From Neglectibacter sp. X58 (lineage in GTDB: Bacteria > Bacillota > Clostridia > Oscillospirales > Acutalibacteraceae): 64,000 nucleotides of DNA. The position numbers were made by a program, and so were the translations under genes. The notes under the pieces were generated by a model. It saw only the letters and a list, made by a program, of their open reading frames with translations, made no database searches and was not told the DNA's origin. Below are positions 5,889-39,523 of this stretch, piece after piece (the first letter of the stretch is position 1; each line of letters begins with the position of its first letter). Location: NCBI RefSeq assembly GCF_009936035.1, contig NZ_QWEO01000011.1, positions 1-64,000 of the forward strand, written 5' to 3'.

Positions 5889-5982
5889 TCATAATCAATC
5901 CTCGACCTCCTTTGCAATTACATTGTATTGGGAATCAAAGAAAACTTGTAGTTTGCGACCGGATACATCGTACAACACAAAA

Positions 5983-6016
5983 AAGACCTTGAAAGGTGTT
6001 GTCCTCTCAAGGTCTT
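5983..6016 (-). terminator. Rho-independent terminator
   Basis: A 10-bp stem AAGACCTTGA/TCAAGGTCTT. On the minus strand it is followed by a run of six T. It should stop transcripts coming from the integrase side. Confidence 0.7.
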
Positions 6017-7595: not shown

Positions 7596-7608
7596 TCCTT
7601 TTCCTTTC

Positions 7609-7950
7609 CTATAACATAGCTCTGATTTTATCGAGAAACTCACAATCTGTTTTTTCGCAAAAAGTTATACCGTACAAATCCGCTTTTTTTGAAAGTTGAT
7701 TGAAGTCGTAAGCAGACATAAGCATAAATGGAACAGAAATATTCCTTTCTTTGCAAGAATGCAGTAAATCTAAGCCTGTTCCATCCCGCATATTATAATC
7801 AGAACAAATCAGATCAACAGAAGTCGTTTCCAGCTTTTTCAATGCGTCATTAACGCCGTCTGCTTCCAAAACCTCAAATTCATTTTTCAAAGTTTCCGAT
7901 AAGGCATATCTGATTGTTTCGTCGTCATCTACAAGTAAAATTCGTTTCAG
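7609..7950 (-). CDS. Stand-alone receiver-domain response regulator with non-ATG start
   Basis: 113 residues when read from the CTG at 7950 (or the ATT just before it), preceded by GCGAGG at a good distance. Starting at the first ordinary start codon would remove the LLVDDDE acidic pocket. The receiver then has VDDDE, the phospho-Asp in LICSDYNMRDG, the Ser in MLMSAYD and the Lys in FCEKTD. There is no output domain. It may act as a phosphate sink or relay for the kinase encoded at 13166-14557, but that is a guess. Confidence 0.75.
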   Translation of the reverse strand: MKRILLVDDDETIRYALSETLKNEFEVLEADGVNDALKKLETTSVDLICSDYNMRDGTGLDLLHSCKERNISVPFMLMSAYDFNQLSKKADLYGITFCEKTDCEFLDKIRAML

Positions 7951-7974
7951 AATAAAACCTCGCTTTCTACTGAA

Positions 7975-8151
7975 TCATAGTTTTTTTTTGCATTTATCAC
8001 ACCAACTAACAATCCGATCCATAATTCTATAAATACAATAAATAAGTATTACAAAAATGCCTGTGGGTATCAGTAATATCCCTATAAGGATACCGCCGAT
8101 ACCCATTACGGCATATGCTACAAATTTTCTGTACTTCTTAGTTTTCCGCAT
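7975..8151 (-). CDS. Small membrane protein, 58 residues
   Basis: ATG at 8149-8151, overlapping the end of the lipoprotein gene by 14 bp. A basic start (MRKTKKYRKF) is followed by one long hydrophobic stretch of about 30 residues and a Cys/Lys-rich tail (SWCDKCKKKL). The RBS is weak, so translational coupling is likely. No family recognised. The overlap and the membrane character support a real gene in the transporter operon. Confidence 0.5.
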   Translation of the reverse strand: MRKTKKYRKFVAYAVMGIGGILIGILLIPTGIFVILIYCIYRIMDRIVSWCDKCKKKL

Positions 8152-14605: not shown

Positions 14606-15289
14606 CTAATACTGTGGCGCACCATAGCCGAGTATCTGATAATGTCCCACAGAATACTGATTGATTCGACAGCTATCGCCGGAATTACCCTCCACGGTGT
14701 AAACGATACCGTTCTCGATTTTCTCAACGATACCCACATGATCGGATTCTCCGTCGCTGTCCCAATCAAAGAAAATAATCATACCGGGAACAGGTTCGGC
14801 AGATCCGTCAAGCCATTGTCCTCTGTCCTTAAACCATTGAACGCCGTTGACACAGCCTGCAAATTTCGGGATAACCCCAGTATCAATATATCCGCACTCA
14901 TTAGCACACCAGCTCACGAAACAAGCGCACCACTCTACACGGGAGTTAAAGCCGTACCACGACCAATAAGGCTCACCGCCGACATTGCCGACCTGAGAGA
15001 GTGCAACGGTTACAATCTCTCCATCTCCGCCCGTAATTCCGTAAAGTACCTGTGACCAAAGGGAATTATTCTCATCTCTCAGCAATTCAGCAAGCACATC
15101 TTTCCACACGGCTCGGCTTCCGCTCATTTCAAGCACATCATAGGTCACAGCGTCTTTTTCAGCTTGCAGCTTGGTATCATACTCTGTGTTGATTTCCTGT
15201 ACCACCGTCTGCATACTCATACCTGTTCCGCTGTCCTCGCCTGAAAAGAATATCCCGAACACAGAGCCAAGCAATAACCCGATCAGGCA
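14606..15289 (-). pseudogene. CHAP hydrolase of a conjugative element (second copy), N-terminally truncated
   Basis: Codes for the end of the membrane helix ([20 protein letters not shown]), the linker and a complete CHAP domain with the catalytic Cys in EWCACFVSWC and His in DHVGIVEKIE. The Lys/Ala-rich N-terminus and start codon are gone: at about 15290 the sequence switches to a plus-strand DNA polymerase IV tail. The last 125 codons match the fragment at 2851-3243, giving a direct repeat of about 390 bp that brackets the 11-kb cargo region. Confidence 0.85.
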
Positions 15290-15494
15290 ACTCGACTTGT
15301 TTACTGATTATGCCGCTTTGGAACAGCAAAGAGCGGCTGAAAAAGAAGAACAGGAACGAGAGTTGAAGATTCAAAAAGCACTCATAGGCATCAGAGACAA
15401 GTTCGGGAAAAACGCCATTATAAAAGGGCTGAATATGCACGAAGGGGCAACCGCTATGGAGCGCAACAAGCAGATTGGCGGTCACAAGGCGTAA
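15290..15494 (+). pseudogene. C-terminal tail of a Y-family DNA polymerase (DinB/UmuC-like), truncated
   Basis: The frame QLDLFTDYAALEQQRAAEKE to MERNKQIGGHKA is the typical basic tail of Y-family polymerases carried by Firmicutes mobile elements (DLFTDY is the clamp-binding-like motif). Palm and finger domains are absent because the sequence joins the CHAP gene at 15290. The next gene, YolD-like, normally follows this polymerase, which supports the identification. Confidence 0.75.
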
Positions 15495-15511
15495 GAAAGG
15501 TGTGATACATT

Positions 15512-15973
15512 ATGAGTGATGGTAGAACGGAATATGGAGACATCATAGACCATGAGCATCATGTGTCACAAAAGCGCCCTCAGATGTCTCGACTCAATCG
15601 AGCAGCACAGTTCTCACCTTTTGCAGCCCTCACCGGTTATGACAGTCTTGTTGCTGAATCGGCAAGAGTAACCGACACAAGAAAAGACCTGACAGAAGAT
15701 GAGATTGAAGCGCTAAACGCTAAACTCAATCTGTTGCAAAACAATTTGAGCAAACACCCTGTTGTGACAATTCTGCATTTTGTAGAGGACGGGAAAAAAG
15801 CTGGCGGCTCTTATATCGAGACCAAAGGAGTCATTAGAAAAATACAACCGTATGAGCGTATTCTCATCATGGAGTCTGGTGCTGAGATACCTCTTGACGA
15901 TATAGTTGACTTATCCGGCAGACTTTTTTGCAGTCTTGACTTTTCGGAGGGAGAGACGGTAAGCCATGATTGA
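15512..15973 (+). CDS. YolD-like family protein
   Basis: 153 residues with AGAAAGG upstream. The opening (YGDIIDHEHHVSQKRPQMSRLNRAAQFSPFAALTGYD) and the middle beta region (GVIRKIQPYERILIMESGAEIPLDDIVDL) are hallmarks of YolD-like proteins encoded next to UmuC-type polymerases on phages and conjugative elements, where they are thought to assist lesion bypass. The gene looks intact but its polymerase partner has been destroyed. It overlaps the following IreB-like gene by 8 bp. Confidence 0.85.
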   Translation: MSDGRTEYGDIIDHEHHVSQKRPQMSRLNRAAQFSPFAALTGYDSLVAESARVTDTRKDLTEDEIEALNAKLNLLQNNLSKHPVVTILHFVEDGKKAGGSYIETKGVIRKIQPYERILIMESGAEIPLDDIVDLSGRLFCSLDFSEGETVSHD

Positions 15974-16166
15974 AAATCCAAAGGAAGTTTTCGATTCCAT
16001 AGTGGAATCCATCAAAGAGGCTGGCTACGATCCATACAGTCAACTGTGCGGATATTTGCAGGACGGAGACCCCTCCTAAATCACCCGCAAGGGTAACGCA
16101 AGACAGCTCATATCGAGTTTGGATCAGGCTTTTCTGAAAGACCTTATCCGCACACTTAGAAGTTGA
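15966..16166 (+). pseudogene. IreB-like small protein gene with an in-frame TAA
   Basis: The ATG at 15966 opens a 66-codon frame that matches the IreB/UPF0297 pattern: KEAGYDPYSQLCGYLQDGDPS, stop, ITRKGNARQLISSLDQAFL. In the family the position of the stop (16077-16079) is usually Tyr in GDPxYIT, so a single base change to TAA explains it. Both halves stay in the same frame. IreB is a small phosphoprotein of the IreK/StkP kinase pathway; versions on mobile elements have unknown roles. Confidence 0.75.
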
Positions 16167-16172
16167 AATACA

Positions 16173-16213
16173 AAGAGCCAACATGAGGGTCAACTCCCCA
16201 TGTTGGCTCTTCT
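16173..16213. terminator. Bidirectional terminator between the element remnant and hsdR
   Basis: A 13-bp perfect stem AAGAGCCAACATG/CATGTTGGCTCTT. It separates the plus-strand YolD/IreB transcript from the convergent restriction operon. Confidence 0.8.
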
Positions 16214-16238
16214 TGTAGAATGTCTACTTGAGTATCCC

Positions 16239-19200
16239 TTACTCTGCGTATTTCTTGAAGTTTTCTGCCTGCTCCAAAACTTCTTTATATACATCGTCCA
16301 TTGTCACAGGTGGATATCCGAACTCGTCAAGCAGTAGAATCAAATCCACTTTCATGCTCGCTTTGATGTCATCTTTCACAAAGCAATCTGTGTACTTGGT
16401 CTTATCATCTACAACCGCCTTTACTCGCCTTGCCAGCTCCCGCATCTTTTCATCATCGTACTCATTGTCAAACTCATACTTTTTGGCTACTGCCTTGAGA
16501 ATATCATAGAACGCCTTTTCCTCGTAAGAAATCCCCATCTCCTCAAAAGAGTTCTTATCGGCTTTTAGTTCCTCAAGGAGCTTTGCGAGCTGCTCTGCAA
16601 CATCATCAAGAACTTCGTTTGCATACGCTTCATCACGCCTGCGATTATTGTACTCATCGACCACTCTTCTTAGCCGATCTCCAAACTCAATACCCTTTAT
16701 CTTATTTACCTTCTTGTATTCGTTAATCGCCTGAGAAAGCAAACGCTGTAAAAGCTTTACCTTAGTATTAGGAAGCTGAATCGCATTGATTTTGTCCATA
16801 TATTCATCACTGAAAATGTCAACAGAGATATGCTTTCCTGTTTCAAAGAGTTCCTCAATCCCATCTGACTGAATAGCTCCTTCCAGTAGCTCACGAACAC
16901 GAGCGTTCATCTGAGAAATATCCGGTGCTTCTCCTTTCGTCAGCTTAAATAGGACAGATCGGACAGCACAATAGAAGTGGATATAGTTCCTCTCCTCATC
17001 TGATATAGCGTCACTGGAACTGCACAGGTTGAAGGCTTGTTTCATGCGCTTGACAGCCGCCATAAAGCGAGTCTCCATCTCTTCGGAAAGCTGAACAAAC
17101 TCCACCGCTTTGTTCAAACACTCAAGCTGTTCCTTTGGCGTTCCCTCAAAGAATCGGCTACTGTTGAACTTGTAGAATATACTGCTCAGGACTTCAAGTT
17201 GATCTTTTACAATCGTGACAGATTGTTCTATCCCCTCAAACTCGTCAGCCTCAAAGTTTGTGTACTTCTTCAAGGCAAGGTTCATATTTTTCTTTATGCC
17301 GATATAATCAACGACCAATCCCTTCTCCTTGCCCTCACAGACCCTATTCACTCTGGAGATTGTCTGGATAAGTGTATGTTGCTGGATCGGCTTGTCAATG
17401 TAAATCGTATCCAGCGCCGGAACATCGAAGCCCGTCAGCCACATATCCACTACGATAGCAATTTTGAAATTAGACTTTTCATTCTTGAATTGCCGGTCGA
17501 GTTCCTTTCTATCGTCCTTTGTTCCCAACATATTATATAGGGCTTCTTCATCGTCCTTGTTCCGAGTCATTACCATCTTTATCTTCTCGATAGGTTTCAA
17601 CTCTCTTTTGTCCTCTTCTGGCAGAGCTACACCATCGGGACAGACTTTTCTTTCCGTCCATTCCGGTCTCAGCTCAGTAACGATTTTGTAGAATTGATAA
17701 GCAATCGTGCGATTTGAACAAACGAACATGGCTTTTCCGGCAACAGTCGCACCCTCAGCCACCCTTGTTTCATAGTGGGTTATAAAGTCCTCTGCAACAG
17801 CACGAAGTCTATCTGGGTCTCCGATAATCATATCAAGGTGTGCGACCGCTTTTTGGCTTTCCTCGATCTGATATTCATTTGCGCCCTCCGCTTCGCACTT
17901 GTCGTAGTATTCCTCAATCTCCCGAACCTTGTCCTGATCGAGCAGCACCCTTGCAGCACGACCATCATAAACGAGATTTACAGTAATTCCGTCCTGCACA
18001 GCCTCAGTCATGGTATATGCGTCCACAACCGCTCCAAACACTTCAATGGTGGCATCTATTGGCGTTCCGGTAAATCCGACATAGGTAGCGTTAGGAAGAG
18101 AATCGTGGAGATACTTTGCGAACCCATAGGTGCGGCTCACTCCGTCCTCAGTCACTCTCACTTTCTGGTCAAGGTTAATCTGGCTCCGATGTGCTTCATC
18201 AGAAATGCAGATAACATTTTCCCTGTCGGTAAGAAGATCTAAATCCTCAGTAAACTTCTGAATTGTTGTGAGGTAAACGCCTCCGCTTTCTCTCCCCTGA
18301 AGCTCCCTGCGAAGCGTCTCACGAGAATCAATGCTTATAACAGTATCATCTCCAATGTACTTCTTGGAGCCAACAAACAACTTAGAGAGCTGGTCATCAA
18401 GGTCGGTTCGGTCGGTAATCACAAGAATAGTAGGACTATGAAAGTATGTACTCTTCATGAGCATACGGGTCAGGAAAAGCATGGTATAGCTTTTTCCGCA
18501 ACCAGTAGCGCCGAAGTATGTGCCTCCTTTTCCGTCCCCTTCTGGACGCTGATGGAGCTTGATATTGTCAAAGAGCTTAGATGCTGCGAAATATTGTGGA
18601 TAACGACAAACAATCTTCAAGTCTTTGTCAGAGGAATCAGGGAAGTATATAAAGTCCTTAATAACCGCAAGAAGCCTATCTGTTCGGAAAAGCCCCTGAA
18701 CCATCGTGACAAGAGAATCGATCCCGTCCAACTCCCTATCGTCTGGGTTGACTTTTCTCCATGCATAGAAGAAATCATAGGGAGAGAAGAAGGAGCCGTA
18801 TTTATTATTAGCACCATCACTGATCACAACAAAGGCATTGTACTTGAAAAGCTCCGGTATATCCCTGCGATACCGGACAGTGAGCTGAGTATAGGCATCT
18901 GAGATAGTGGTATTCTCCTTAACAGCGCTTTTGAACTCAAAAACCACCAAAGGTAGCCCATTTACGTAGACTACACCATCGGGTATTCGCTTCTGATTGT
19001 TGATACCATCAATCTCCATCTGATTGATAATCTTGAAAGTGTTTTTGTCTGGCTCGTTGAAATCAACCAGCTCAATAAAAATGTCCTTTTGCGTTCTGTC
19101 CTCTCTGTTAAAGATAAATCCATCACATAGCATCTTCATAAAAGTTTTGTTGGCTTCATAGAGAGTCCCTGAAACACTTTTCAGCATAAGAATGATGTTC

Positions 19201-19385
19201 TCAACCTCGCTCGGAGTAAGCCCTTCTTCCACATACCGGTTCAGGAGAAAGCTGCGAATGTCCTCAGTCAGCAAGACCTCGCTCCGTTCCCTGTGGAGCT
19301 TTTCACCGCTCAGATATGTATAGCCCTCATCCTGAAAGAGTTGCATGATGGACATTTCTAAGGCGTGTTCATTGAAGTTCGGCAT
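16239..19385 (-). CDS. hsdR: Type I restriction endonuclease subunit R
   Basis: 1048 residues from the ATG at 19385 (GGAG 9 bp upstream; another ATG 9 bp earlier has no spacing for an RBS). The N-terminal nuclease domain has the PD-(D/E)xK core: Asp in RIPDGVVYVNG and VFEFK (about residues 136-152). Two RecA-like domains follow, with Walker A GATGCGKSYT (about 292-301), DEAH in CISDEAHRSQ and motif III GFTGTP. A helical C-terminus contacts the methylase. It translocates DNA and cleaves sites left unmodified by HsdM/HsdS. It is the last gene of the operon, behind the invertible specificity locus and two zinc-ribbon genes. Confidence 0.96.
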   Translation of the reverse strand: MPNFNEHALEMSIMQLFQDEGYTYLSGEKLHRERSEVLLTEDIRSFLLNRYVEEGLTPSEVENIILMLKSVSGTLYEANKTFMKMLCDGFIFNREDRTQKDIFIELVDFNEPDKNTFKIINQMEIDGINNQKRIPDGVVYVNGLPLVVFEFKSAVKENTTISDAYTQLTVRYRRDIPELFKYNAFVVISDGANNKYGSFFSPYDFFYAWRKVNPDDRELDGIDSLVTMVQGLFRTDRLLAVIKDFIYFPDSSDKDLKIVCRYPQYFAASKLFDNIKLHQRPEGDGKGGTYFGATGCGKSYTMLFLTRMLMKSTYFHSPTILVITDRTDLDDQLSKLFVGSKKYIGDDTVISIDSRETLRRELQGRESGGVYLTTIQKFTEDLDLLTDRENVICISDEAHRSQINLDQKVRVTEDGVSRTYGFAKYLHDSLPNATYVGFTGTPIDATIEVFGAVVDAYTMTEAVQDGITVNLVYDGRAARVLLDQDKVREIEEYYDKCEAEGANEYQIEESQKAVAHLDMIIGDPDRLRAVAEDFITHYETRVAEGATVAGKAMFVCSNRTIAYQFYKIVTELRPEWTERKVCPDGVALPEEDKRELKPIEKIKMVMTRNKDDEEALYNMLGTKDDRKELDRQFKNEKSNFKIAIVVDMWLTGFDVPALDTIYIDKPIQQHTLIQTISRVNRVCEGKEKGLVVDYIGIKKNMNLALKKYTNFEADEFEGIEQSVTIVKDQLEVLSSIFYKFNSSRFFEGTPKEQLECLNKAVEFVQLSEEMETRFMAAVKRMKQAFNLCSSSDAISDEERNYIHFYCAVRSVLFKLTKGEAPDISQMNARVRELLEGAIQSDGIEELFETGKHISVDIFSDEYMDKINAIQLPNTKVKLLQRLLSQAINEYKKVNKIKGIEFGDRLRRVVDEYNNRRRDEAYANEVLDDVAEQLAKLLEELKADKNSFEEMGISYEEKAFYDILKAVAKKYEFDNEYDDEKMRELARRVKAVVDDKTKYTDCFVKDDIKASMKVDLILLLDEFGYPPVTMDDVYKEVLEQAENFKKYAE

Positions 19386-19405
19386 TGTGTTCATCTCCGA
19401 AAAAA

Positions 19406-19612
19406 CTATTTTTTCCCACCAAGGTGTTTTACCCCTGGAATTACGGCAAGAGCGATTACGAAACTCGCTCCTAATGTTTCTCTTATCGCTTTTGTCCGTT
19501 TTCTCCGGCAGCTATCGCAGATTCCCCGCCTGTTCGTACTCCTTAAAGGCTCTCCGCACTTTTTGCAGGTGTTCTCATTTTTTTCGATAAACTTTCTATT
19601 CATCACCTTCAT
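19406..19612 (-). CDS. Small zinc-ribbon protein with a hydrophobic tail
   Basis: 68 residues; the ATG at 19612 is chosen for GGAGG nine bases upstream. A zinc knuckle CKKCGEPL...GICDSCRRKR is followed by a hydrophobic segment (SFVIALAVIPGV) that could be a membrane or packing helix. It overlaps the end of the larger zinc-ribbon gene and lies 20 bp before hsdR, so all three are co-translated. Unknown function. Confidence 0.6.
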   Translation of the reverse strand: MKVMNRKFIEKNENTCKKCGEPLRSTNRRGICDSCRRKRTKAIRETLGASFVIALAVIPGVKHLGGKK

Positions 19613-20717
19613 CTTCACTGCCCTCCGTTATCATAAGAATATTACGACCATTCAACTGCGTATCAGCGTCAAAACTGGTAATCCTTTTGGATATCTGCAT
19701 GAACTCGTCAACCACCGGCATTTTTCTTTGAGGTGTGTTCTCATTTAGCAGTAAAAGCGTATCCTTATCGTCCAGCTTATTTTCAATTATGAAGGACTTA
19801 AACTGCAAAAGGCTCTCCTTGCTTGACTCAAATTCTCCAAGCATAGCGTACCCTTCACATTCTGCCTGCACCGAGTTGATAATTGCCACAAGTGCCTGAA
19901 AAGCATCTTCGGCTTTTCGTGGTATATCTCTGCCCTTTTTCCCCTCTGTTAGTAGCTTCAAATCTGACTTATCTGAGTTCTCTTCAATAAAATGGAGATT
20001 CTCAGAAAAGTTCCTCATTAAAACACGCTTTGCATCTGTTGCCGATGCCACAGCATTTAGAACAGCGACCTGACGCAGCGTTGTGTCCTGAATCTTTGCT
20101 GCCAGCAAGAGCTTGTCCCTTGTGCTTTCAGCCAATGCAATCCTATCATTTTGCAGTTCGATATGTATTCCACGAATTGCGTCTCCAACATACTCAATCT
20201 CGTCAAGAATCTGTGCCATCGCCGCATGGGTAGTTAGATTGTTCAGCGAGCCTGCCAATTCTGGAGAGAAGCTCATTTCCTTTAACCTAACCTGCTTTAC
20301 AATTCCTCCAGAGTCACGAATTGTAGGGAGGATCTTTCCCTTTTTGTCTATTGTAAACCTGTAAATGCCCTTATCTATCAAGTCCTTGATATATGAATCC
20401 ATATCCGCAACAAGAATATTATCTTTGTGTGCCATCGACTTTATTACCTTTGCAATCGCAGGTACTCTAAGTTGAATATTCTGCCAACTGCCAAAGAATT
20501 GGACAAGAGTTTTATTGTCCTCGACAGACATAATACTAAGCTGTCCTCTGTTGGGTTTCCATTCTTCTATGTCATATCCGAAAGCAGGCACCATTTCGTA
20601 AGTATCCTGTTCACTTATAGGACGGGAGGGATCAGCACTCACAAAGCCACAGTGCGGGCAACTCGTAGCTTTATCTGAGATTTTTGTCCCACACTCTGGG
20701 CATAGTATCAAACTCAT
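19596..20717 (-). CDS. Zinc-ribbon protein of unknown function inside a type I RM operon
   Basis: 373 residues with GGAGGGG upstream. An N-terminal zinc ribbon (LILCPECGTKISDKATSCPHCGF, residues 3-25) is followed by a globular part without recognised motifs and a largely helical stretch (about 150-330). The C-terminus is acidic. The start lies 27 bp from inverted repeat A of the invertible hsdS locus. If that cassette is flipped on, this gene follows a complete hsdS directly. Candidate accessory or regulatory factor of the restriction system. Confidence 0.7.
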   Translation of the reverse strand: MSLILCPECGTKISDKATSCPHCGFVSADPSRPISEQDTYEMVPAFGYDIEEWKPNRGQLSIMSVEDNKTLVQFFGSWQNIQLRVPAIAKVIKSMAHKDNILVADMDSYIKDLIDKGIYRFTIDKKGKILPTIRDSGGIVKQVRLKEMSFSPELAGSLNNLTTHAAMAQILDEIEYVGDAIRGIHIELQNDRIALAESTRDKLLLAAKIQDTTLRQVAVLNAVASATDAKRVLMRNFSENLHFIEENSDKSDLKLLTEGKKGRDIPRKAEDAFQALVAIINSVQAECEGYAMLGEFESSKESLLQFKSFIIENKLDDKDTLLLLNENTPQRKMPVVDEFMQISKRITSFDADTQLNGRNILMITEGSEDEGDE

Positions 20718-20738
20718 TCCGTTTTCCCCTCCTTCACA

Positions 20739-21398
20739 ATGGAAAATGATAATTTAACTGAGACAGTTCAGGCAATATATAGGTCAATGTTTTTAGACGC
20801 AAAATATCAGTTCGAGCATAAGCCGCTTTCGGAATTGTGCAGTAAAATAGGTAGTGGAGCAACACCAAAAGGGGGAAAAACGGCTTACTGTGATACTGGA
20901 ATAACGCTTATTCGTAGTACAAATGTTGTAGACTATGGCTTTATTTATGATGGGCTGGCGCACATAACGAATGAACAGGCGGACGCTTTATCAAATGTGG
21001 TTGTTAATTCTGGCGATGTCTTATTCAACATAACTGGCGTGTCTGTTGCACGATGTTGCATGGTTCCCGATGATGTGATTCCAGCAAGAGTCAACCAGCA
21101 TGTAATGATTATCCGTCCCGTAATGGGCAAAGATATGAGTTACTATATCATGGCTACGCTCTGCCATTCAGAAAACAAATCAAAATTGCTTGGCATAGCG
21201 CAGTCTGGTTCAACTCGTGAAGCTATCAATAAACAAGAGATGGAGCAGTTCACTATCCCTGTTCCTTTTGAAACTGCCGTCCATGAGTTCGGCAGAAAAG
21301 TTGAGACTTTATTTACAAACATATCGACAAACATCAATGAAATCAGGCAACTACTTGATATGCAGAGACTTTTGCTATCTCGGCTCTCAAGCCGCTAA
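20739..21398 (+). CDS. hsdS: Inverted hsdS C-terminal half (target-recognition cassette 2b), silent orientation
   Basis: The 219-codon frame is the second half of a type I specificity subunit: central conserved NDNLTETVQAIYRSMFL, then a recognition domain (ELCSKIGSGATPKGGKT to KQEMEQFTIPVP) and the closing coiled coil (INEIRQLLDMQRLLLSRLSSR). It has no RBS in this orientation. It lies between inverted repeats A (20744) and B (21396). Inversion joins NDNL of this cassette in frame to the N-terminal half at 21387-21911, predicting a 385-residue HsdS. Confidence 0.88.
   Translation: MENDNLTETVQAIYRSMFLDAKYQFEHKPLSELCSKIGSGATPKGGKTAYCDTGITLIRSTNVVDYGFIYDGLAHITNEQADALSNVVVNSGDVLFNITGVSVARCCMVPDDVIPARVNQHVMIIRPVMGKDMSYYIMATLCHSENKSKLLGIAQSGSTREAINKQEMEQFTIPVPFETAVHEFGRKVETLFTNISTNINEIRQLLDMQRLLLSRLSSR
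20744..20756 (+). repeat. hsdS recombination repeat A
   Basis: AAATGATAATTTA in plus orientation. It encodes the NDNL hinge of HsdS. Inverted with respect to repeats B and D. Confidence 0.8.
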
Positions 21399-21911
21399 AT
21401 TATCATTTATCTTGCGTTTCAACTCTATCCGGTCTGTAACCGTTTGAAATGCTTTCACAGCTTTCCTTTGTATGCCGATCTCCGGCACAGGAAGCTCCAT
21501 GCGGCATAAATCCTCCCATGTTATACCACCACGCACACTGCCATCGGTTCTAAGCCAGCACTGCCTATCAAACTCTGGACGCCGAAACCACATCATCAGG
21601 TATTCCGGTATGAGATGTTCCTCGTCCATGACCTCGAACATGAAATACGCTGGAGAGACAAGTCCCGGCTCGTTCTCATCATAAAGTGCAACAGGGAGTC
21701 TCTCATCACGCCCCACATGCATGGGATTACAAGCAAATAAGCCCTTCTTCAAGAGCTTGTACTTGCTTAGATCTGTCCCAATCACATTTGCCACAGAGGG
21801 CATAAAAAACTTATCAATGTTTATTCCAAGCACCCGCTCGGTAATGTTATTCTTATTACGAATATCAACCAAGCGGATATTTCTTCCCAGCGGTTCATAA
21901 TTTGAGTACAC
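21387..21911 (-). CDS. hsdS: hsdS N-terminal half (target-recognition domain 1b), truncated by inversion
   Basis: 174 codons from a GTG at 21911 with GAGGTG upstream. LGRNIRLVDIRNKNN, the recognition domain and IELKRKINDNLAA are the first half of HsdS, similar in pattern to the N-terminal half of the intact hsdS at 24526. After NDNL the frame reads AA and stops, because it runs into the antisense of the cassette end. The gene is off in this sequenced state and would be restored by inversion of 20744-21411. Confidence 0.88.
   Translation of the reverse strand: MYSNYEPLGRNIRLVDIRNKNNITERVLGINIDKFFMPSVANVIGTDLSKYKLLKKGLFACNPMHVGRDERLPVALYDENEPGLVSPAYFMFEVMDEEHLIPEYLMMWFRRPEFDRQCWLRTDGSVRGGITWEDLCRMELPVPEIGIQRKAVKAFQTVTDRIELKRKINDNLAA
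21396..21411 (-). repeat. hsdS recombination repeat B
   Basis: Minus-strand GATAAATGATAATTTA. Identity with repeat C extends further into GyGGCkTGAGAGC, about 29 bp with two mismatches. These bases code the hsdS end in one direction and NLAA-stop in the other. Confidence 0.85.
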
Positions 21912-21920
21912 GATTTCACC

Positions 21921-22901
21921 TCATCCAATGTATTTCCTGTGGGCTGATTTCACATTCTGCTGTTTCACCATTGCATAGTGCATGGTGGTGTCAATCTTCT
22001 GGTGTCCCAAGAGCTGCTGCACCTGCTCAATAGGCATTCCCTTATCAATAGCGGTTGTCGCCAAAGTGCGCCGAAACTTGTGCGGATGAACCTTTGATAT
22101 ATTCAGCCGCCTACCCATCTCTCGAAGCCTCGTTTCAACCCCGCTAATCATCAAGCGTTTATGTGGTATGGACAGTGAAACAAAGAGCGCAGGATTGTCG
22201 TCAGATCGGCTATCAAGGTAATTTTGCAGGTGTATCTTTGTTCTGGCATCAAAGTAGACCAAACGCTCCTTATCTCCCTTGCCGAAAACAACGCATTCCC
22301 GCTCGTTGAAGTTGATGTCATCTCGGTTTAGCGCTACCAATTCACCTACACGCATTCCAGATGAAGCCAGAAGATCTATCAGCGCCAGATCTCGAATTGT
22401 TGTGCAACTATCCCGCATCAGTTCCAGCGCCTCATCTGAGTAAACCTCTTTGACGACCTTTCCGGTCTTGACCTTATGAATACGCCTGACCGGACTTTTC
22501 ACGATGTAGTCCTCGTCCTCCAGCCACGAAAAGAAGCTCGAAAGGATACGCCGGATATTGTCTATAGTAACTTTGCTTGAGTTTCTTTCGGTCTGATAGT
22601 CTGTGAGATACCGCCTTATTTCGTCCGTCATAATCTGCTGTGGCGGCTTTCCAATCCCCGCTATCATAGATTCTATCGTACTCTGGTAGTATTTCAGGGT
22701 CTTTTCGGAACACCCCTCCACTCGCTTTGCTGAAAGAAATGCTTTGACAGCATCAACCGGTTTCTGTTTGTTCCCCTGCTCCTTACATATCTCATAGCCA
22801 TGAAGCACATACTCAAGTGCATCTTGTAGGTGCGCTAACTGCTCATTGTTCAGAAACGGCAACATACGCTGCTCTATCTCAGTAATCAGAACCTCTTTCA
22901 T
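21921..22901 (-). CDS. Tyrosine recombinase, likely hsdS invertase
   Basis: 326 residues from the ATG at 22901 (AAAGGAG upstream). An N-terminal SAM-like core-binding domain (KTLKYYQSTIESMIAGIG) precedes a complete catalytic set: Arg in SSGMRVGELVALNR, Lys in FGKGDKERLVYF, HKFRRTLATT, GHQKIDTT and the nucleophile Tyr in MHYAMV. Xer-type recombinases placed between hsdS copies invert specificity cassettes in other Firmicutes. Its location between repeats B and C makes that the likely role. Confidence 0.9.
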   Translation of the reverse strand: MKEVLITEIEQRMLPFLNNEQLAHLQDALEYVLHGYEICKEQGNKQKPVDAVKAFLSAKRVEGCSEKTLKYYQSTIESMIAGIGKPPQQIMTDEIRRYLTDYQTERNSSKVTIDNIRRILSSFFSWLEDEDYIVKSPVRRIHKVKTGKVVKEVYSDEALELMRDSCTTIRDLALIDLLASSGMRVGELVALNRDDINFNERECVVFGKGDKERLVYFDARTKIHLQNYLDSRSDDNPALFVSLSIPHKRLMISGVETRLREMGRRLNISKVHPHKFRRTLATTAIDKGMPIEQVQQLLGHQKIDTTMHYAMVKQQNVKSAHRKYIG

Positions 22902-23005
22902 TGTCGTATCTCCTTTATTGTAGAGAACGACAGGCAACGGCAGTCCCTCAGATTTTCTTCCGCCGTTGGTGGAAGTTTATGCCGGACACATACGCAGCAA
23001 GGCTA

Positions 23006-23365
23006 TCAGTCCCCACTACTGTAGACCTTTGATTCCAGTGATTCTATATCATCTGCCAGCGAATCTAAACGAGAGTTCAGATCAGCAAGGTCATTTTCTA
23101 ATTCGTTCTGCCTATCTTTTATTGTGGTAAACTCTTCATGAAACCCACGAACAGCAAATATCAACTCCACCATGAGAGCCTTATCGTCAAGCTGAAGCAG
23201 GCGGTTCTTCTCCATCTCAAGGGCTTCTCTCTCCTGAGCAAGCCGTTCCTGCATAATGCGAAGCTCCTCTGCCTCAGCTTCAAGCCGCATTCGTTTCTTC
23301 TCTGCCTTCTTCTTAGTCCTTTCCTCCTTCATGGAGTCAAACTTCTGCTTTGCCTTTTCCAACAA
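23006..23365 (-). CDS. Coiled-coil protein of the RM operon
   Basis: 119 residues, TTG start at 23365 with GGGAGGAAC upstream. Residues 3-60 are Lys/Glu-rich heptads (KKKAEKKRMRLEAEAEELRI), followed by a short non-coil segment (MVELIFAVRGFHEEF) and a second coil (LENDLADLNSRLDSLADDI). No known family. It starts 30 bp after the intact hsdS stop, next to repeat C, and is co-transcribed with hsdS and the recombinase. Possibly an accessory factor of inversion or of restriction. Confidence 0.65.
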   Translation of the reverse strand: MLEKAKQKFDSMKEERTKKKAEKKRMRLEAEAEELRIMQERLAQEREALEMEKNRLLQLDDKALMVELIFAVRGFHEEFTTIKDRQNELENDLADLNSRLDSLADDIESLESKVYSSGD

Positions 23366-23382
23366 CGAGAGTTCCTCCCTTC

Positions 23383-23398
23383 GATAAATGATAATTTA
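23383..23398 (+). repeat. hsdS recombination repeat C
   Basis: GATAAATGATAATTTA in plus orientation, overlapping the hsdS stop region. Inverted with respect to B and D. Confidence 0.85.
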
Positions 23399-24526
23399 GT
23401 GGCGTGAGAGCATGGCAACCATAGTGTCTCTAATCTCATTGAGCTTTGATATTTCTGCTTCGTTACACTCAATGGCAGCAAGAAAAGGAATAACCGTGTT
23501 GTTAAACGCTACAAGGGTATGCTTGTCGGGGATAGAAAGCTCATATTCCCCTAAAAGTGGTGGATTAGCTTGGGGCTGAGCAGAGCCGCCAGCATTGGTT
23601 TGGACAAATTTGAGAAACTCAGCAGAAGTAATCGTCAGGCCCAAGTAGTATTTGTATTCATTATCCAGAGGTCTTATTCTTACAAGAAATGATGCGAATA
23701 CCGAATCAGGTATTTTTTTACCCATCATCTTGGAATAACCGACGGTAGCACCGGTACGGGCGACTACAACATCACCTTCTGAGAGAACATATTTACTATA
23801 ATTCTCTTTGCTGATTGGACAATATGGTACGTTGGTCCAGTCAATATAGTTTTGAGCGATGTCTGTAATGCGTAAAAACTTAGGGCCAACAGGTTCGGCT
23901 GTGGCTGTTTCGGTATAGCCATACTGCATAATAGAGTAATCTTTTAACTTGCCTGTAGTCGAAGTCTTATTTGCAGTAAATGCCCTTACATACGCTCTCA
24001 TCTGAGCTTCTAAATTATCATTTATCCATTTCTTTAGAGCTATTCGCTCTGTGATTGCACGATAGCTATTAACTATCTCAAGCTGTTCCTCATAGGGAGG
24101 AACAGGCAACTCCACCTTGCACAATTCGTCCCAGTCAAACACCTCTCTTACACTTCCATGCGACTTGAACCTTGCATAACGGTCAAACTCAGGTCTGGAA
24201 AACCAAAGCATGAGATATTGGGGTATGAGTTGCTTCTCATCTATAATCTCAAAAACGGTATATACATTGCTTACAAGCCCCTCTTCATAATCCTCAAGGA
24301 GAGCAATCCCTATTTTGTCCCCTCTCCGAGAGGTATCAGGAATGTAAGTAAACTGCCCCCGCTTCACTACCTTGTACTTTGTGAAATCAGTACCTACGGT
24401 ATTTGCGATTGATGGCATAAAGACCTTTTGAACTGAAACACCAAGAAGGTTATCTTCCTTCCCATCACTATTTCTAACATCGACTGCTCGAATATACTGT
24501 CCAAGTCGCTTATAATTCAATTTCAT
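23396..24526 (-). CDS. hsdS: Type I specificity subunit S (intact, expressed allele)
   Basis: 376 residues, overlapping the hsdM end by 17 bp. Two recognition domains: 1a (residues 1-155, LGQYIRAVDVRNSDG to WDELCKVELPVPPYEEQ) and 2a (about 185-340, YGYTETATAEPVG to YELSIPDKHTL), separated by the conserved ALKKWINDNLEAQMRAYVRAF coil and closed by EISKLNEIRDTMVAMLSRH. Repeat D lies at the NDNL hinge and repeat C at the end, so domain 2a is a swappable cassette. It dictates which sequence HsdM methylates and HsdR cuts. Confidence 0.95.
   Translation of the reverse strand: MKLNYKRLGQYIRAVDVRNSDGKEDNLLGVSVQKVFMPSIANTVGTDFTKYKVVKRGQFTYIPDTSRRGDKIGIALLEDYEEGLVSNVYTVFEIIDEKQLIPQYLMLWFSRPEFDRYARFKSHGSVREVFDWDELCKVELPVPPYEEQLEIVNSYRAITERIALKKWINDNLEAQMRAYVRAFTANKTSTTGKLKDYSIMQYGYTETATAEPVGPKFLRITDIAQNYIDWTNVPYCPISKENYSKYVLSEGDVVVARTGATVGYSKMMGKKIPDSVFASFLVRIRPLDNEYKYYLGLTITSAEFLKFVQTNAGGSAQPQANPPLLGEYELSIPDKHTLVAFNNTVIPFLAAIECNEAEISKLNEIRDTMVAMLSRH
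24011..24026 (-). repeat. hsdS recombination repeat D
   Basis: Minus-strand GATAAATGATAATTTA inside hsdS, coding the INDNL hinge. Identical over 16 bp to B and, inverted, to C. Confidence 0.88.
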
Positions 24527-26081
24527 ACCCCAGCTCCTTAAACACCGCCAATAGATCTGCCTTTGACTTCTCTTCCTGAATGAGCAAGTCTTTCAGTTCT
24601 CCTTGCAGAGCTTTCATCTTCGTGTCAAAATCAATGTTCTCGTCTCGGTTTATGAACTCTATGTACCGGCTTGGAACAAGGGTAAATCCCTTTTTCTTAA
24701 CCTCATCAAAGGAGGCAGAATAGCAAAATTCCGGTATGTCCTGATAGGTCTCTTCGTACCCAACTTGCTGCCAGTTATGATAAGTTGCTGTTACTTTTGC
24801 CCGATCCTCTTCTGTCAGCTCAATATACTTCTTTTCATACGGGCTTCCCATCTGCCGCAAGTCCATAAAGAGGATTTCACGCTCTCGGTTCCGATAACGC
24901 TTGACTTGCCCGTTCTGCTCAACCACTCGTGCCTTCTTATTTTTATTGAGAATCCAGAGGGTAACGCTAATGTCAGTGGTATAAAACAGGCTGCGAGGAA
25001 GAATGACAATAGCTTCTACAAGATTGTTCTCGATAAGTTGCTGTCTGATTTTCAGCTCTGTACCATCATCAGACAGCGCTCCGTTAGCGAGCAGAAAACC
25101 CGCCACACCATTTTGCGATAGCTTAGAAACGATGTTCAGAATCCAACCATAGTTGGCGTTACTTGTTGGTGGCACCTCATATCCCCGCCAGCGTGGATCG
25201 CCGGTCAACTCATCTTCGCCTCGCCATTCTTTCTGATTAAAAGGTGGGTTCGCCATAATGAAGTCTGCTTTCAAATCCTTGTGCTGGTCATTTGTAAAGG
25301 TGTTTGCTGCCTGCTCACCTAAATTGGCTGAGATACCACGAATCGCAAGATTCATTTTTGCCAGCTTGAATGTAGTGCTGGTGTATTCCTGTCCATAGAT
25401 GGAAACATTCCGCTTATTTCCCCGATGCGCTTCCACGAACTTAATGGACTGCACAAACATTCCGCCAGAGCCACAACAAGGGTCATACAGAATCCCCTCG
25501 TATGGCTCAATCATTTCAGCAATCAGATTGACAATACATTTAGGCGTATAGAACTCGCCCTTGCCTTTCCCCTCCGCAAGAGCAAACTTTCCGAGGAAGT
25601 ATTCATAAACACGACCAATGATGTCGTTTTCCTCATCGCTGGTGTTAATCCTGTTAATCTCATCAAGGAGCGACGCCAGCTTTGCTGTGTCCAAATGAAG
25701 GCGTGAGTAATAGTTATCCGGCAAGGCTCCTTTAAGAGAAGGGTTAGACTTTTCTATAGTATAGAGAGCAGTGTCAATTTTGAGGGCTATATCATCTTGT
25801 TTAGCATTTTCCATGATATAATCCCAACGGCACTCAGGGGGGAGATAAAACACATTATCCTTTGTATAGAAGTCCACCATTTCAATGAACTTCTCCTGCC
25901 CTGCCGCTTTGATTTTTTCCCTCTGAGTCTCAAATTTATCACTCGCAAACTTTAGGAAAAACAAACTCAGAACGACATGCTTATACTCCGCAGGTTCTAC
26001 AGAACCTCGGAGTTTATCAGCCGACTTCCAGAGCGCTTCCTCCATACTGACTTCTTTTTTGGGTTTTGCTGCCCTTGCCAT
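24510..26081 (-). CDS. hsdM: Type I DNA methyltransferase subunit M (N6-adenine)
   Basis: 523 residues from the ATG at 26081 (GGAGG 8 bp upstream; a GTG further up is less likely). An N-terminal helical HsdM_N domain (EEALWKSADKLRGSVEPAEYK) is followed by the SAM-binding motif YDPCCGSGGMF and the catalytic NPPF in FIMANPPFNQ (about residue 280). The C-terminal helices bind HsdS. First enzyme gene of the operon, behind the XRE regulator. Confidence 0.96.
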   Translation of the reverse strand: MARAAKPKKEVSMEEALWKSADKLRGSVEPAEYKHVVLSLFFLKFASDKFETQREKIKAAGQEKFIEMVDFYTKDNVFYLPPECRWDYIMENAKQDDIALKIDTALYTIEKSNPSLKGALPDNYYSRLHLDTAKLASLLDEINRINTSDEENDIIGRVYEYFLGKFALAEGKGKGEFYTPKCIVNLIAEMIEPYEGILYDPCCGSGGMFVQSIKFVEAHRGNKRNVSIYGQEYTSTTFKLAKMNLAIRGISANLGEQAANTFTNDQHKDLKADFIMANPPFNQKEWRGEDELTGDPRWRGYEVPPTSNANYGWILNIVSKLSQNGVAGFLLANGALSDDGTELKIRQQLIENNLVEAIVILPRSLFYTTDISVTLWILNKNKKARVVEQNGQVKRYRNREREILFMDLRQMGSPYEKKYIELTEEDRAKVTATYHNWQQVGYEETYQDIPEFCYSASFDEVKKKGFTLVPSRYIEFINRDENIDFDTKMKALQGELKDLLIQEEKSKADLLAVFKELGYEIEL

Positions 26082-26126
26082 GTCCAATACCTCCACTTAG
26101 GTTTTATATCGCCTTACTACCATCTA

Positions 26127-26330
26127 TCAATCTTGATGAAACTCCATAATATCATCTGCCCGGCAATCCAGCGCAGTACAAATCTTACCAACAACCTCCG
26201 TAGAAACAGCTTCATCTCTGCTGAGCTTCTTTATCGTGTAGGAAGTCAGCCCTGCAAGCTCCGCTAAGTCTTTCTTCTTCATATCCCTATCCAACAGGAT
26301 ATGCCAGAGTTTCTTATAGCTAACAGCCAT
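26127..26330 (-). CDS. XRE-family HTH regulator of the RM operon
   Basis: 67 residues from the ATG at 26330 (GAAGGAGAG upstream). The Cro/C1-type HTH DMKKKDLAELAGLTSYTIKKLSRDE is followed by VSTEVVGKICTALDCRADDIMEF, a common stand-alone form. It lies 45 bp upstream of hsdM on the same strand, like controller proteins that delay restriction until the host is methylated. Confidence 0.88.
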   Translation of the reverse strand: MAVSYKKLWHILLDRDMKKKDLAELAGLTSYTIKKLSRDEAVSTEVVGKICTALDCRADDIMEFHQD

Positions 26331-26450
26331 TTTCGTCTCTCCTTCAGTTATCGACATGGCTTTATTATAGCACATTGCAGTCGAATCAACAACCTTACGG
26401 GCAGTATTTCGCCCTTTTTAGGCAATAATTTTTCTTACTTTGGGCTGGTC

Positions 26451-26804
26451 TTAATCTTCCAAATCAATCGGACGAACAAGCCTCCCTTTGTTATACACAG
26501 CATGGGTATAATAATCGAGGGAGATTGTAATATCAAATCCGTAAATATCAGTGAAGAAAGAAATGCTATCAGCCTTTCTAAACACAGACAATAAAAATAC
26601 CATGTCCCCAGCACAATCAAAGGAGTAATTAACCTCTATACAGCTATAAACGCCTTTATAACGGGCATTAAAACCGTTGTCTAACCGTTCGATATCGCTC
26701 TCGTCCCAATTCAGGGATACTGTTTCGCCAGTGACCAATTTAATCTCAATATAGTCAATCACGAGATCTTCCAAATCGGTACTGGCACTCAAATAAAGAA
26801 TCAT
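26451..26804 (-). CDS. Hypothetical protein of mobile-element type
   Basis: 117 residues from the ATG at 26804 (GAAAGGA upstream). It begins MILYLSASTDLEDLVIDYIE and shows alternating strands (VTGETVSLNWDESDIERL, FDITISLDYYTHAVYNKG), suggesting a small beta-rich protein. No catalytic or binding motif was recognised. Similar-looking short proteins occur in Clostridial conjugative elements, but I cannot name the family. It is upstream of, and co-directional with, the RM operon. Confidence 0.55.
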   Translation of the reverse strand: MILYLSASTDLEDLVIDYIEIKLVTGETVSLNWDESDIERLDNGFNARYKGVYSCIEVNYSFDCAGDMVFLLSVFRKADSISFFTDIYGFDITISLDYYTHAVYNKGRLVRPIDLED

Positions 26805-27240: not shown

Positions 27241-27290
27241 AAAGAAACCGATGGTATAGACTATATTTAGTCGGAACCATCGGTTTCTTT
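27241..27290 (-). terminator. Terminator at the transposase 3' end
   Basis: Perfect 15-bp stem AAAGAAACCGATGGT/ACCATCGGTTTCTTT overlapping the transposase stop. It can end transcripts in either direction and so insulates the element. Confidence 0.75.
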
Positions 27291-28962
27291 ATCCAAAGAT
27301 CTGGGATACTCTGCCAAATAAGTTAACGCTTTCTTCTTCGCGCATCATAACAAGCATGCTCATGCACTGACAGAGTGATTCGATGCTTTCAAAACTCCGG
27401 AATGACACGGCCTGCTGTTGTTTTCTTTTATAGCCTCTCAAAAGCCTTTCGGCTTCATTGTTGGTGGCTGGCACTCTCTGGTCATATAGGAACAGGAAGT
27501 GGTTGTGCATGTATTCCTCCAGCCGTATAGATAAATTGTGCCCCTTTTTATAATACTTATTTGGCGGGAGATACTCATATTCTTCTTTTGCTTTCTGCAG
27601 GATCTGGCGGTATCTCGCTTCAAATCCGCTGACCACCTCCGGATCGCATTCCTCCCCCTCTTCCAGGCTGTTCCGGTAGTGGATCATCTCCTGCATATGG
27701 GAGTGCATCTCCTTGTTCCAGGACCGGTCTGGTTCGTTTTCCATGCTGTCTTTGAGTGCCCGCAGGACATGGGCCAGGCATTCCTGGTGGTCAGAACCGT
27801 ATTGGTAAAACGTCGCCTCATGGTCCTGCACGATGATCCCGTCATAATCCTGCACTGGTGTCCCCTCCACACCTTTATGCCCCTTTTTCTGGCGGGCAAA
27901 ATAAAGGGCTTTCCCATCTGGGGACGCACAGATAAAGACGTAGGCGCTCTTCCCATTTAGCAGCGCGTTGGTGCAGTCTGTGTGCAGAACTGGCGAAAGG
28001 AGCAGCTGCGTAAAGACTTTCTTCCGCTCCGCTTCTGTCTTTGCAGCAAACTCTCTGCTGAGTTTATTTACCATCCCTTTGGAAATATTTAGTTTCCCGT
28101 CTGTCAGGTCGGACAGGAAACGGCGGCTCTTATCGATGGAGGTACAGCAGTCATTGTTCAAAAGGAAGAGAAATGCCTTGATGCTCCCGCCATAATTGAC
28201 ATCGTCTGTGACTCCTTCCGGAAAGGGGGCATGGAACCTTTCACCTGTTTTTGAATTATAGTAGACATCCGCATGGTATTCTGTGACTTCCAGCACCAGG
28301 CGGACTTCAACCTGCTGTTTTACCAGGGTTTTTGATGTCTTCCTGAAATCCGGGTCATCCAGGATCTCCCGGGGCGGTTCCAGGAATACAACTGCGGTTG
28401 GTTCCTGCTTCCTGCGGCAGTGCCCTTTGTGCCCTGGCTGGCCGCCCGGCTTCTTCCCGGTCTTCTCCCTGCTGTTTGTGATCTTTTTGCGGCGGATGGT
28501 TTTGGAAGAAGGGATGGAGGAATTCTCATGGCCATGGTTCAGCTGGGCCTTCAGACGGAGGTTTTTTCCCTTTTCTTCTTCCAGCTGCGTCTCTGCTTCA
28601 TAGAGCTTATGGCGCTGCTGTGTTACCTTGTCCAGGGCTTCGTCACGCTCATGTTCTGCCTTCAGTGCCCGCTTTTCCATCTGCGCGAGCTGCTTTTGGA
28701 GGGCGGCTTTTTCCTTCCGGTGCTCCTTTTGAAGATCCTCAAAGACTTCAAACCAGTGGTTGCGGGCGGCAGCCATGTCCCGGCGGGCCTGGGCTGTCTC
28801 CTCCTTCTGATGCCGGATCTCCTGCTCCAGAGCCTTTACTTCCTTCCGGTGCACCTCATGGATCTTCTGATATTTTTTCCCAGACTTAAAAGCCGACACT
28901 TCTGCTTCGGCTGCTTTAAGGCGGTATTCCAGGAATGTGATACGGGAAAAGGAACGGTCCAT
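27289..28962 (-). CDS. tnpC: IS66-family transposase (TnpC)
   Basis: 557 residues from the ATG at 28962 (GGAGG 7 bp upstream). A long coiled-coil N-terminus (residues 10-150) leads into a zinc-finger/HTH linker with the family hallmark NSSIPSSKTIRRKK and GKKPGGQPGHKGH. The DDE domain follows, with the first Asp in LHTDCTNALLNG, the second in IIVQDHEATFYQ plus the QECLAHVLRALKD insertion, and the Glu in NNEAERLLRGYK. The frame is unbroken, so the transposase is probably active. Confidence 0.95.
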   Translation of the reverse strand: MDRSFSRITFLEYRLKAAEAEVSAFKSGKKYQKIHEVHRKEVKALEQEIRHQKEETAQARRDMAAARNHWFEVFEDLQKEHRKEKAALQKQLAQMEKRALKAEHERDEALDKVTQQRHKLYEAETQLEEEKGKNLRLKAQLNHGHENSSIPSSKTIRRKKITNSREKTGKKPGGQPGHKGHCRRKQEPTAVVFLEPPREILDDPDFRKTSKTLVKQQVEVRLVLEVTEYHADVYYNSKTGERFHAPFPEGVTDDVNYGGSIKAFLFLLNNDCCTSIDKSRRFLSDLTDGKLNISKGMVNKLSREFAAKTEAERKKVFTQLLLSPVLHTDCTNALLNGKSAYVFICASPDGKALYFARQKKGHKGVEGTPVQDYDGIIVQDHEATFYQYGSDHQECLAHVLRALKDSMENEPDRSWNKEMHSHMQEMIHYRNSLEEGEECDPEVVSGFEARYRQILQKAKEEYEYLPPNKYYKKGHNLSIRLEEYMHNHFLFLYDQRVPATNNEAERLLRGYKRKQQQAVSFRSFESIESLCQCMSMLVMMREEESVNLFGRVSQIFG

Positions 28963-28978
28963 AAGCTGCCCTCCTGCT

Positions 28979-29155
28979 TCAGTGCCTGGAAAGTCTGTCA
29001 ATGAATGCCATCAGTTTCTCATTGTGTTCTGTCAGTGCCTGGATTGTCTCCTCCTGTATGCGGATGATCTGGTCCTGTTTCTCAACCTGGGCTTCCAAGG
29101 CGGCAACCAGCTCCCCACAAATGGCGGCCGGCTCCCTGTTTTTGTCTGGCTTCAT
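28979..29155 (-). CDS. 58-residue coiled-coil protein upstream of the IS66 transposase
   Basis: ATG at 29153-29155 preceded by AGAGAGGATGAAG, stop 16 bp before the transposase start. MKPDKNREPAAICGELVAAL is followed by a heptad stretch EAQVEKQDQIIRIQEETIQA. The N-terminal heptads of the transposase suggest the two might interact. The gene is inside the element and coupled to tnpC. I do not recognise a named family. Confidence 0.6.
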   Translation of the reverse strand: MKPDKNREPAAICGELVAALEAQVEKQDQIIRIQEETIQALTEHNEKLMAFIDRLSRH

Positions 29156-39466: not shown

Positions 39467-39523
39467 AAGCATCGCCTCCTACTTACATTACACGGATGAG
39501 AATCTTATATTACAACCCGATTT

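Follow-up and report, generated by a model that had tools for sequence, protein, structure and literature searches.

Which of the inversions that are possible in a type I restriction-modification locus with exchangeable specificity halves are its main moves, and how many complete HsdS subunits do they leave? The question is raised by a stretch of 64,000 nucleotides from Neglectibacter sp. X58 (contig NZ_QWEO01000011.1, positions 1 to 64,000; hereafter the window), in which hsdR, hsdM and a two-domain HsdS are encoded together, as in type I systems, and four copies of a short sequence (sites A to D) surround a tyrosine recombinase gene (Table 1). The gene order on the minus strand is hsdM, a complete hsdS (N-terminal half N1 joined to C-terminal half C1), an open reading frame (ORF) of 119 amino acids (aa), the recombinase and a second N-terminal half, N2; a second C-terminal half, C2, lies reversed between sites B and A. 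According to our analysis, inversions between A and D and between B and C very probably exchange the C-terminal halves and keep exactly one complete HsdS at the locus.

The four copies of AAATGATAATTTA are exact 13-mers that alternate in strand (+, −, +, −). No further exact copy exists in the 3.36-Mb assembly, where the pattern occurs twice forward and twice in reverse, every time at the hsdS locus, and its reversed control gave none. With up to one mismatch, five matches were found in the window, compared with an average of 0.37 and a maximum of 2 in shuffled windows (0 of 100 reached 5). An earlier interpretation of this DNA, the sequence-only reading, had described such alternating copies, coding the NDNL hinge or the end of HsdS, and this description holds: the hinge is coded at B, at D and at A (the head of the parked half), and C lies at the HsdS stop. 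Its starts for A, B and D were right, whereas the one given for C, 23383, is the start of a 17-bp arm shared with D, and the 13-mer itself starts at 23386. Sites B and C share a 29-nt arm with 93% identity. The gene structure was also read correctly, with a complete hsdS of 376 aa and a second one split into an N half ending in NDNLAA and a C half inverted between A and B. The recombinase between B and C is indeed of the Xer type: besides a Phage_integrase match, it scored 250.4 bits against NF040815 (XerA-type; curated cut-off 220) and has kept the RKHRHY residues, as expected for a member of that family. The partial second hsdS with inverted repeats to the first and the recombinase gene within the locus are features of invertible type I systems.

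Comparison of strains, which the sequence-only reading had recommended, revealed an alternative arrangement with junctions at the sites. A search with the hsdM DNA across the family gave one near-identical locus, from the same genus, the remaining matches being distant. This locus is very probably that of bacterium D16-76 (L005; L numbers are our locus labels), whose island matches the window from 15287 to 26647 in pieces at 99.85-100% identity, and the breakpoints between the two are the sites. In D16-76, hsdM and N1 are followed in frame by C2 (100% identity at the DNA level), giving a 385-aa HsdS, while N2 is parked with its stop after NDNLAA; the locus lacks C1, and its A-B interval holds a new parked half, C3. 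Both genomes contain exactly four exact sites. Outside the island of ~11 kb, the matches of the window to the 54-kb D16-76 contig are short (75-86%); a near-identical island in poorly matching surroundings suggests that it moved recently. The idea of a shuffling specificity locus with its own recombinase is borne out by this rearrangement. Near-identical loci in alternative arrangements, with breakpoints at the repeats, were also found on Lactococcus plasmids: pJM2A and pUC073A have cassette X on and Y off, and pUCCL627F has Y on and X off, both cassettes being exchanged and flipped at 100% identity. A megablast search of the window locus against PLSDB gave no match.

The outcome of each inversion was derived in silico from the state of the window. 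Inversion of A-B gives two HsdS, the new one (385 aa) being in frame, and inversion of C-D truncates the active one at NDNLVA and leaves none, both as the sequence-only reading had stated; B-C leaves HsdS unchanged, and A-D converts N1+C1 into N1+C2. After A-D and then B-C, N1+C2 is on, N2 is parked and C1 lies at A-B, which is the arrangement of D16-76 except that C1 has been replaced there. In the mechanism that we propose, N1 (after hsdM) and N2 (after the recombinase) would remain co-directional and fixed, and the C halves would act as cassettes, each with one site at its hinge end and one at its stop end. An A-D inversion, with or without B-C, would bring the parked C half in frame behind N1 and park the other, so that the second half of the recognized DNA sequence would change and one complete HsdS would remain. 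By inference, most rearrangement proceeds through A-D and B-C, and each swap would alter the specificity of methylation and of restriction. In an AlphaFold model of N1+C1 (24 sequences; mean predicted local distance difference test score 88.9, predicted template modeling score 0.76), NDNL (residues 169-172) falls within a long central helix (145-185), a second long helix spanning 335-375; the top Foldseek matches of the model were solved S subunits (7vru, 7vs4, 2y7c, 1yf2, and 1ydx). A join inside the helix expected to space both recognition domains suggests that swaps would keep the fold. The sequence-only reading counted at least four specificities, which are formally possible; only N1+C1 (window) and N1+C2 (D16-76) have been seen at this locus, and N1 and N2, with 47% identity across all 174 residues, may recognize alike.

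Related loci were collected to establish how common this arrangement is. The recombinase pattern was matched by 512 stretches of genome contigs, 495 of which encode a relative; retaining the best 80 and adding the window gave 81 loci, and viral-contig, plasmid, phage and class-wide loci enlarged the set to 136. The site search in the 81 loci allowed any core, and that in the larger set required identity between the site copies. The order forward, reverse, recombinase, forward, reverse was found in 62 of the 81 loci, with one core per locus across the four copies; the remaining 19 are cut by a contig end, have a changed base at a site, show another layout or carry an extra unit (L030). Four sites of 12 to 16 bp could be located around the same Xer-like recombinase in 89 of the 136 loci of the larger set. 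This recombinase was detected at E 1e-100 or better in 19 of 391 genomes sampled from the class, the window's own included, and 115 of 117 aligned recombinases retain the catalytic RKHRHY. The family was found in chromosomes, in plasmids and in contigs filed as viral.

Across the 81 loci, the core (NNNN) is CAAT in 30, CGAT in 24, TGAT in 15, CAAG and CGAG in 5 each, and CGCG and TGAA in 1 each, and depending on the core the hinge residue is D, N, E, K, or A. Within the 62 four-site loci, inspection by eye revealed no match with another core in place of a site. Since the core alters the hinge residue between loci, protein constraint does not explain the identical cores within a locus, which argues for a constraint on the DNA. 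Tyrosine recombinases need identical overlaps, and this need would explain the same core within each locus. A genome-by-genome tally of AAAYRATAATTTA was uninformative, because it occurs by chance in AT-rich genomes and the control counts were mostly similar; in genome G220 it is a dispersed repeat (57 forward and 60 reverse copies versus 1 and 0 for the reversed control).

Contig ends provided a further indication of site activity. A tally by hand covered 31 loci at which a contig ends, with 43 ends in all; 8 of these fell within 4 bases of a site, and three metagenome contigs (L050, L052, and L067) start and end exactly with the site. Assemblies break where reads disagree; the samples therefore probably held several arrangements. 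Two of these contigs, L050 and L067, which are filed as Cyanobacteria/Gastranaerophilales, have another layout, in which hsdM (leftward) and the recombinase (rightward) each point toward a terminal site, the two sites are inverted and there is no space for N2 after the recombinase; owing to this difference, the flush ends support the activity of the sites, not the four-site layout. Between the two inverted sites of contig L052 lie two recombinase genes and a 201-aa ORF (52-657), Fic-like by eye; no HsdM-like ORF appears in the ORF listing of this contig.

The state of each slot was determined from the frame read as found and after inverting the slot, with slots numbered by the recombinase direction, and loci were merged into clusters at 95% identity of the middle segment. 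Among the 62 loci, 58 have one slot on and one off (the first on in 33 and the second in 25), two have both on, one has both off, and in one (L032) the second slot is unreadable. In the larger set, 78 of the 82 scorable loci are in antiphase and four in phase (L031 and L043 on/on; L056 and L121 off/off), all four of the latter with recombinases that keep RKHRHY; seven of the 89 were unscorable (L032, L039, L057, L102, L112, L134, and L140). Counted as clusters, 70 of 81 are in antiphase, 4 in phase and 7 unscorable, a departure from one half over the 74 with a binomial p of 1.3e-16. The sequence-only reading had taken A-B and C-D as working switches, and this part of it is not supported, as these inversions give two or zero HsdS and such states occur in 4 of the 74 scorable clusters; the larger inversions A-D and B-C, which it named only as extras, are the better supported moves for exchanging halves. 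Either selection or a pairing of like flanks with each other may give rise to the pattern. As independent flips would be the simple expectation, the one-on, one-off regularity offers a testable rule in programmed inversion.

Further evidence concerns the pairing of the sites. Exact inverted matches of at least 20 bp among the 89 loci were found 36 times for D-A and 28 times for B-C, compared with twice each for D-C and B-A. On its right side, each site is flanked either by a cassette start or by a cassette end, and the identity of these flanks over 12 bases in the 78 antiphase loci is 0.67 for D-A and 0.66 for C-B, against 0.31-0.33 for the other four pairs. Related cassettes (at least 80% identity) in different slots were in opposite on/off states in 10 of 10 pairs, as A-D plus B-C predicts; these pairs are partly dependent, two of them being L057 (with a reversed middle segment) with the similar L040 and L058, and one being L017 with itself. 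The loci L023 and L135, with related middle segments in opposite states, were rejected as evidence of the path, since they share no cassette. The reading that we favor is that A-D and B-C form the main path and that other events are rarer.

Several points weigh against this reading. The evidence of rearrangement is a comparison of assembled loci between strains and plasmids, from which switching within one strain is extrapolated, and the neighboring recombinase is the presumed agent by virtue of its position and conservation. The matching of flanks may reflect shared coding ends only, and in the window D and A match over 13 bp only, versus 17 bp for both C-D and B-C. Plasmid pJM1A has X in both slots, the second being on, and one copy is unflipped relative to pJM2A. 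The slot that is on is the first in 44 loci and the second in 34, and a change from N1-active to N2-active needs moves besides A-D and B-C. In five pairs, related cassettes occupy the same slot in different states, which is not given by these two inversions alone. Since each of them flips the middle segment, its reversed state should be frequent; yet, among the 66 of 69 loci in which hsdM was matched, the segment is co-directional with hsdM in 62 and reversed in only four (L034, L057, L102, and L112; in these, the first slot is not the hsdM-adjacent one), some bias for which the two inversions give no reason. Finally, a 2,289-bp unit reaching from site C to site A is exactly duplicated in tandem in L030 (the duplication lying at 2894-8126), with two recombinase genes and an extra N half and cassette, which suggests that direct site pairs probably recombine too.

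Some of these points speak for other explanations. The same-slot pairs and the longer arm shared by C and D than by A and D are in favor of each cassette flipping independently, through A-B or C-D, with the one-HsdS pattern resulting from selection against cells with two or no HsdS. The frames permit such flips (N2+C2 of 385 aa on one side, a truncated N1 on the other), and in-phase states do exist. However, independent flips without selection predict about half of the clusters in phase, in place of 4 of 74, and a selective cost of two type I specificities would need further assumptions; we know of no such cost that explains the pattern unaided. In addition, all 10 between-slot pairs fit the long inversions. 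We therefore regard independent flipping as conceivable but not probable.

Excision through the direct pairs D-B and C-A is another alternative, in which a circle with the recombinase and one cassette would re-enter at the other site. It would keep the direction of the middle segment and the antiphase automatically and toggle N1 versus N2; the co-directional middle segments, the frequency of both first-slot-on and second-slot-on loci, and the tandem C-to-A duplication all agree with it, and circles have a precedent at pneumococcal SpnIV/tvr (PMC6265443; this and the other published accounts cited here are covered by excerpts). However, excision and reintegration alone would never activate a parked C half, as seen in D16-76 and pUCCL627F; shared cassettes in different slots were unflipped in 0 of 10 pairs, only pJM1A, with X duplicated, showing an unflipped copy; and the duplication in L030 comes from a metagenome contig. 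This route appears unlikely as the explanation. The locus could also be dead or fixed, with the repeats being conserved hinge coding and the strain differences arising by ordinary homologous exchange; the hinge is conserved in the protein, and the island was recently transferred within the genus. Against this stand the placement of half the sites at a stop end or an outer position, a core that differs from locus to locus but is constant inside each of the 62 four-site loci, the breakpoints with inversion at 13-bp sites and the contig ends flush with sites, and the exchanged and flipped plasmid cassettes with 100% identity contradict it, so that a dead or fixed locus is hardly credible. The reading in which A-D and B-C exchange the C halves remains the one that we prefer.

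A related question is whether the parked N half has a role of its own. In the window, N2 has a GTG start 9 nt past the recombinase stop and a Shine-Dalgarno-like (SD-like) GAGG upstream; by itself it matched no Pfam or NCBIfam family. In 74 of 89 loci, a possible start of N2 lies at -8 to +45 nt relative to the recombinase stop, with an SD-like string in 58 of these loci, and 122 of 143 off readings (as found or inverted) end six residues past the frame start, at NxNL plus two residues, often AA. The silent second hsdS copies of P. gingivalis and T. forsythia are described as lacking a start codon (PMC7394358), in contrast to N2 with its candidate start. Truncated S subunits can be functional: split sites of palindromic form are recognized by EcoR124I delta50 and EcoDXXI deltaC, and the truncated S of NgoAV is symmetric in its specificity (PMC3874165). 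The Foldseek matches listed also include half-length chains under the name Esub1 (8vsq and 8vsr). By analogy, N2 may be a functional half-S subunit, in which case an asymmetric and a palindromic specificity would coexist at each locus. The conserved stop after NxNLAA was rejected as a sign of selection for the parked state, being confounded by the cassettes' own stop, which is mostly too close. Among 156 unique cassettes, 21 have their own stop in the site, and 18 of these 21 carry an antisense stop at codon -3 (background 0.049), an excess that is suggestive only of such selection. A more far-reaching version would be a counting rule, in which the two kinds of flank pair like with like, the antiphase state allows only A-D and B-C, the in-phase state deletes itself, and the parked N half works as a half-S with a second, palindromic specificity; we consider this combination doubtful.

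Inverting hsdS loci are well established (PMC7394358, PMC4948785, PMC4783014, PMC6122466), and the statement of the sequence-only reading that they are known in other Firmicutes agrees with the Listeria ST8, S. pneumoniae and L. reuteri loci. The hsd locus of Listeria monocytogenes ST8 is similar: it is a type I system in which an integrase gene separates two hsdS, short repeats serve for inversion, and strains carry different variants; there, opposed hsdS genes flank the integrase, the repeats lie in the 5' end and the center (16 and 29 nt), and both recognition halves switch (PMC4783014). Such an opposed pair, of the Listeria ST8 and S. suis type, is not what the window contains: N1 and N2 are co-directional and fixed, the sites lie only at the hinge and the stop, and only the C halves move. 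The cod/SpnIII locus of S. pneumoniae likewise has a tyrosine recombinase (PsrA) in the locus and a 15-bp inverted repeat that exchanges the 3' part of hsdS, but it has three hsdS, three repeat pairs (15, 85, and 298 bp) and a single functional hsdS next to hsdM (PMC4948785, PMC7096588); no four-copy site at hinge and stop was found in the excerpts of these two descriptions. Recombinase-driven movement of recognition-domain segments also occurs at the type I locus SpnIV/tvr, by direct repeats and circular intermediates (PMC6265443), whereas the sites of the window are inverted and alternating; its pairs D-B and C-A are direct, and a tandem unit occurs in L030. LreRMII of Lactobacillus reuteri, with the recombinase LsrA, has the order hsdR, two hsdS with the recombinase between them and hsdM, and its domains are rearranged in sequenced derivatives; both hsdS, however, keep two recognition domains, and 5' and 3' domains are exchanged via CR1 and CR2 (PMC6122466).

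Invertible hsdS genes of a REBASE survey (PMC7394358) and of inverton group 145 from a gut community (PMC11892184) resemble the window in that inverted repeats overlap hsdS and a recombinase is often nearby. Group 145 includes Firmicutes_A and Bacteroidota strains (PMC11892184), and it may include the family of the window locus. For inclusion in the survey, repeats had to be exact and 20 bp or longer (PMC7394358), a threshold passed by 54 of the 89 four-site loci and missed by 35, the window included; the idea that it would have missed most of the family is thereby ruled out, and part of the family may be listed there, with no description of the layout in the excerpt. The four-site layout in which only C halves move and one HsdS is complete was not found in the literature searched, of which coverage was partial, and it looks like a new variant of invertible hsdS. 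The arrangement, called distinct by the sequence-only reading, is distinct from the published examples as far as the excerpts go, yet common in public genomes. It defines a recognizable and widespread family of self-shuffling restriction systems, with a short site signature by which further members can be found.

Table 1. Sites and genes of the invertible type I locus and its neighborhood in the window.
Feature	Position	Strand	Evidence or remark
Site A	20744..20756	+	outer, hsdR-side position; exact 13-mer; junction in D16-76
Site B	21396..21408	-	hinge site of N2 (NDNL); exact 13-mer
Site C	23386..23398	+	stop codon of complete hsdS; 17-bp arm 23383-23399
Site D	24011..24023	-	hinge site of N1 (NDNL); 17-bp arm 24010-24026; junction in D16-76
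Active hsdS, N1 joined to C1, 376 aa	23396..24526	-	Methylase_S; PADLOC Specificity_I; AlphaFold; Foldseek
C2, silent C-terminal HsdS half, 219-aa ORF (MENDNLTET...SSR, stop)	20739..21398	+	Methylase_S match
N2, N-terminal HsdS half, 174 aa, ends NDNLAA, stop	21387..21911	-	47% identity to N1
XerA-like tyrosine recombinase, 338 aa from TTG	21921..22937	-	NF040815 above cut-off; Phage_integrase; RKHRHY present
119-aa charged ORF between site C and recombinase	23006..23365	-	coiled-coil-like by eye
hsdM	24510..26096	-	N6_Mtase, HsdM_N
hsdR	16239..19394	-	TIGR00348 above cut-off; PADLOC REase_I
373-aa zinc-ribbon protein between site A and hsdR	19596..20717	-	Zn_Ribbon_1 above cut-off
Cro/C1-type helix-turn-helix gene upstream of hsdM	26127..26375	-	HTH_26

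The recombinase has an alternative ATG 12 codons inside its TTG start. The 119-aa ORF gave no family match in Pfam and NCBIfam profile searches, and many relatives have no space for it, since the distance from site C to the recombinase is only ~80 bp there. Beyond site A, after the reversed C2, the 373-aa protein precedes hsdR and has no family above cut-off other than the zinc ribbon; in the Lactococcus loci, a DUF3800 protein occupies its position. For the small helix-turn-helix gene, the best NCBIfam match was VanU, which was rejected (60.9 bits versus a cut-off of 150) in favor of a general Cro/C1 assignment. Possible remains of a conjugative element lie at 14606-15973 (a CHAP-type peptidase-like ORF, the end of a UmuC-like gene and a YolD-like ORF, named by eye), and D16-76 has a 508-aa UmuC-like ORF that shares its end with the UmuC-like remnant. 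Farther away on the minus strand, an IS66-like transposase ORF was named by eye at 27289-29001, and a second, distant tyrosine recombinase (38636-39472; 31% identity to that of the locus) adjoins a sortase-like ORF at 37853-38629, also named by eye.

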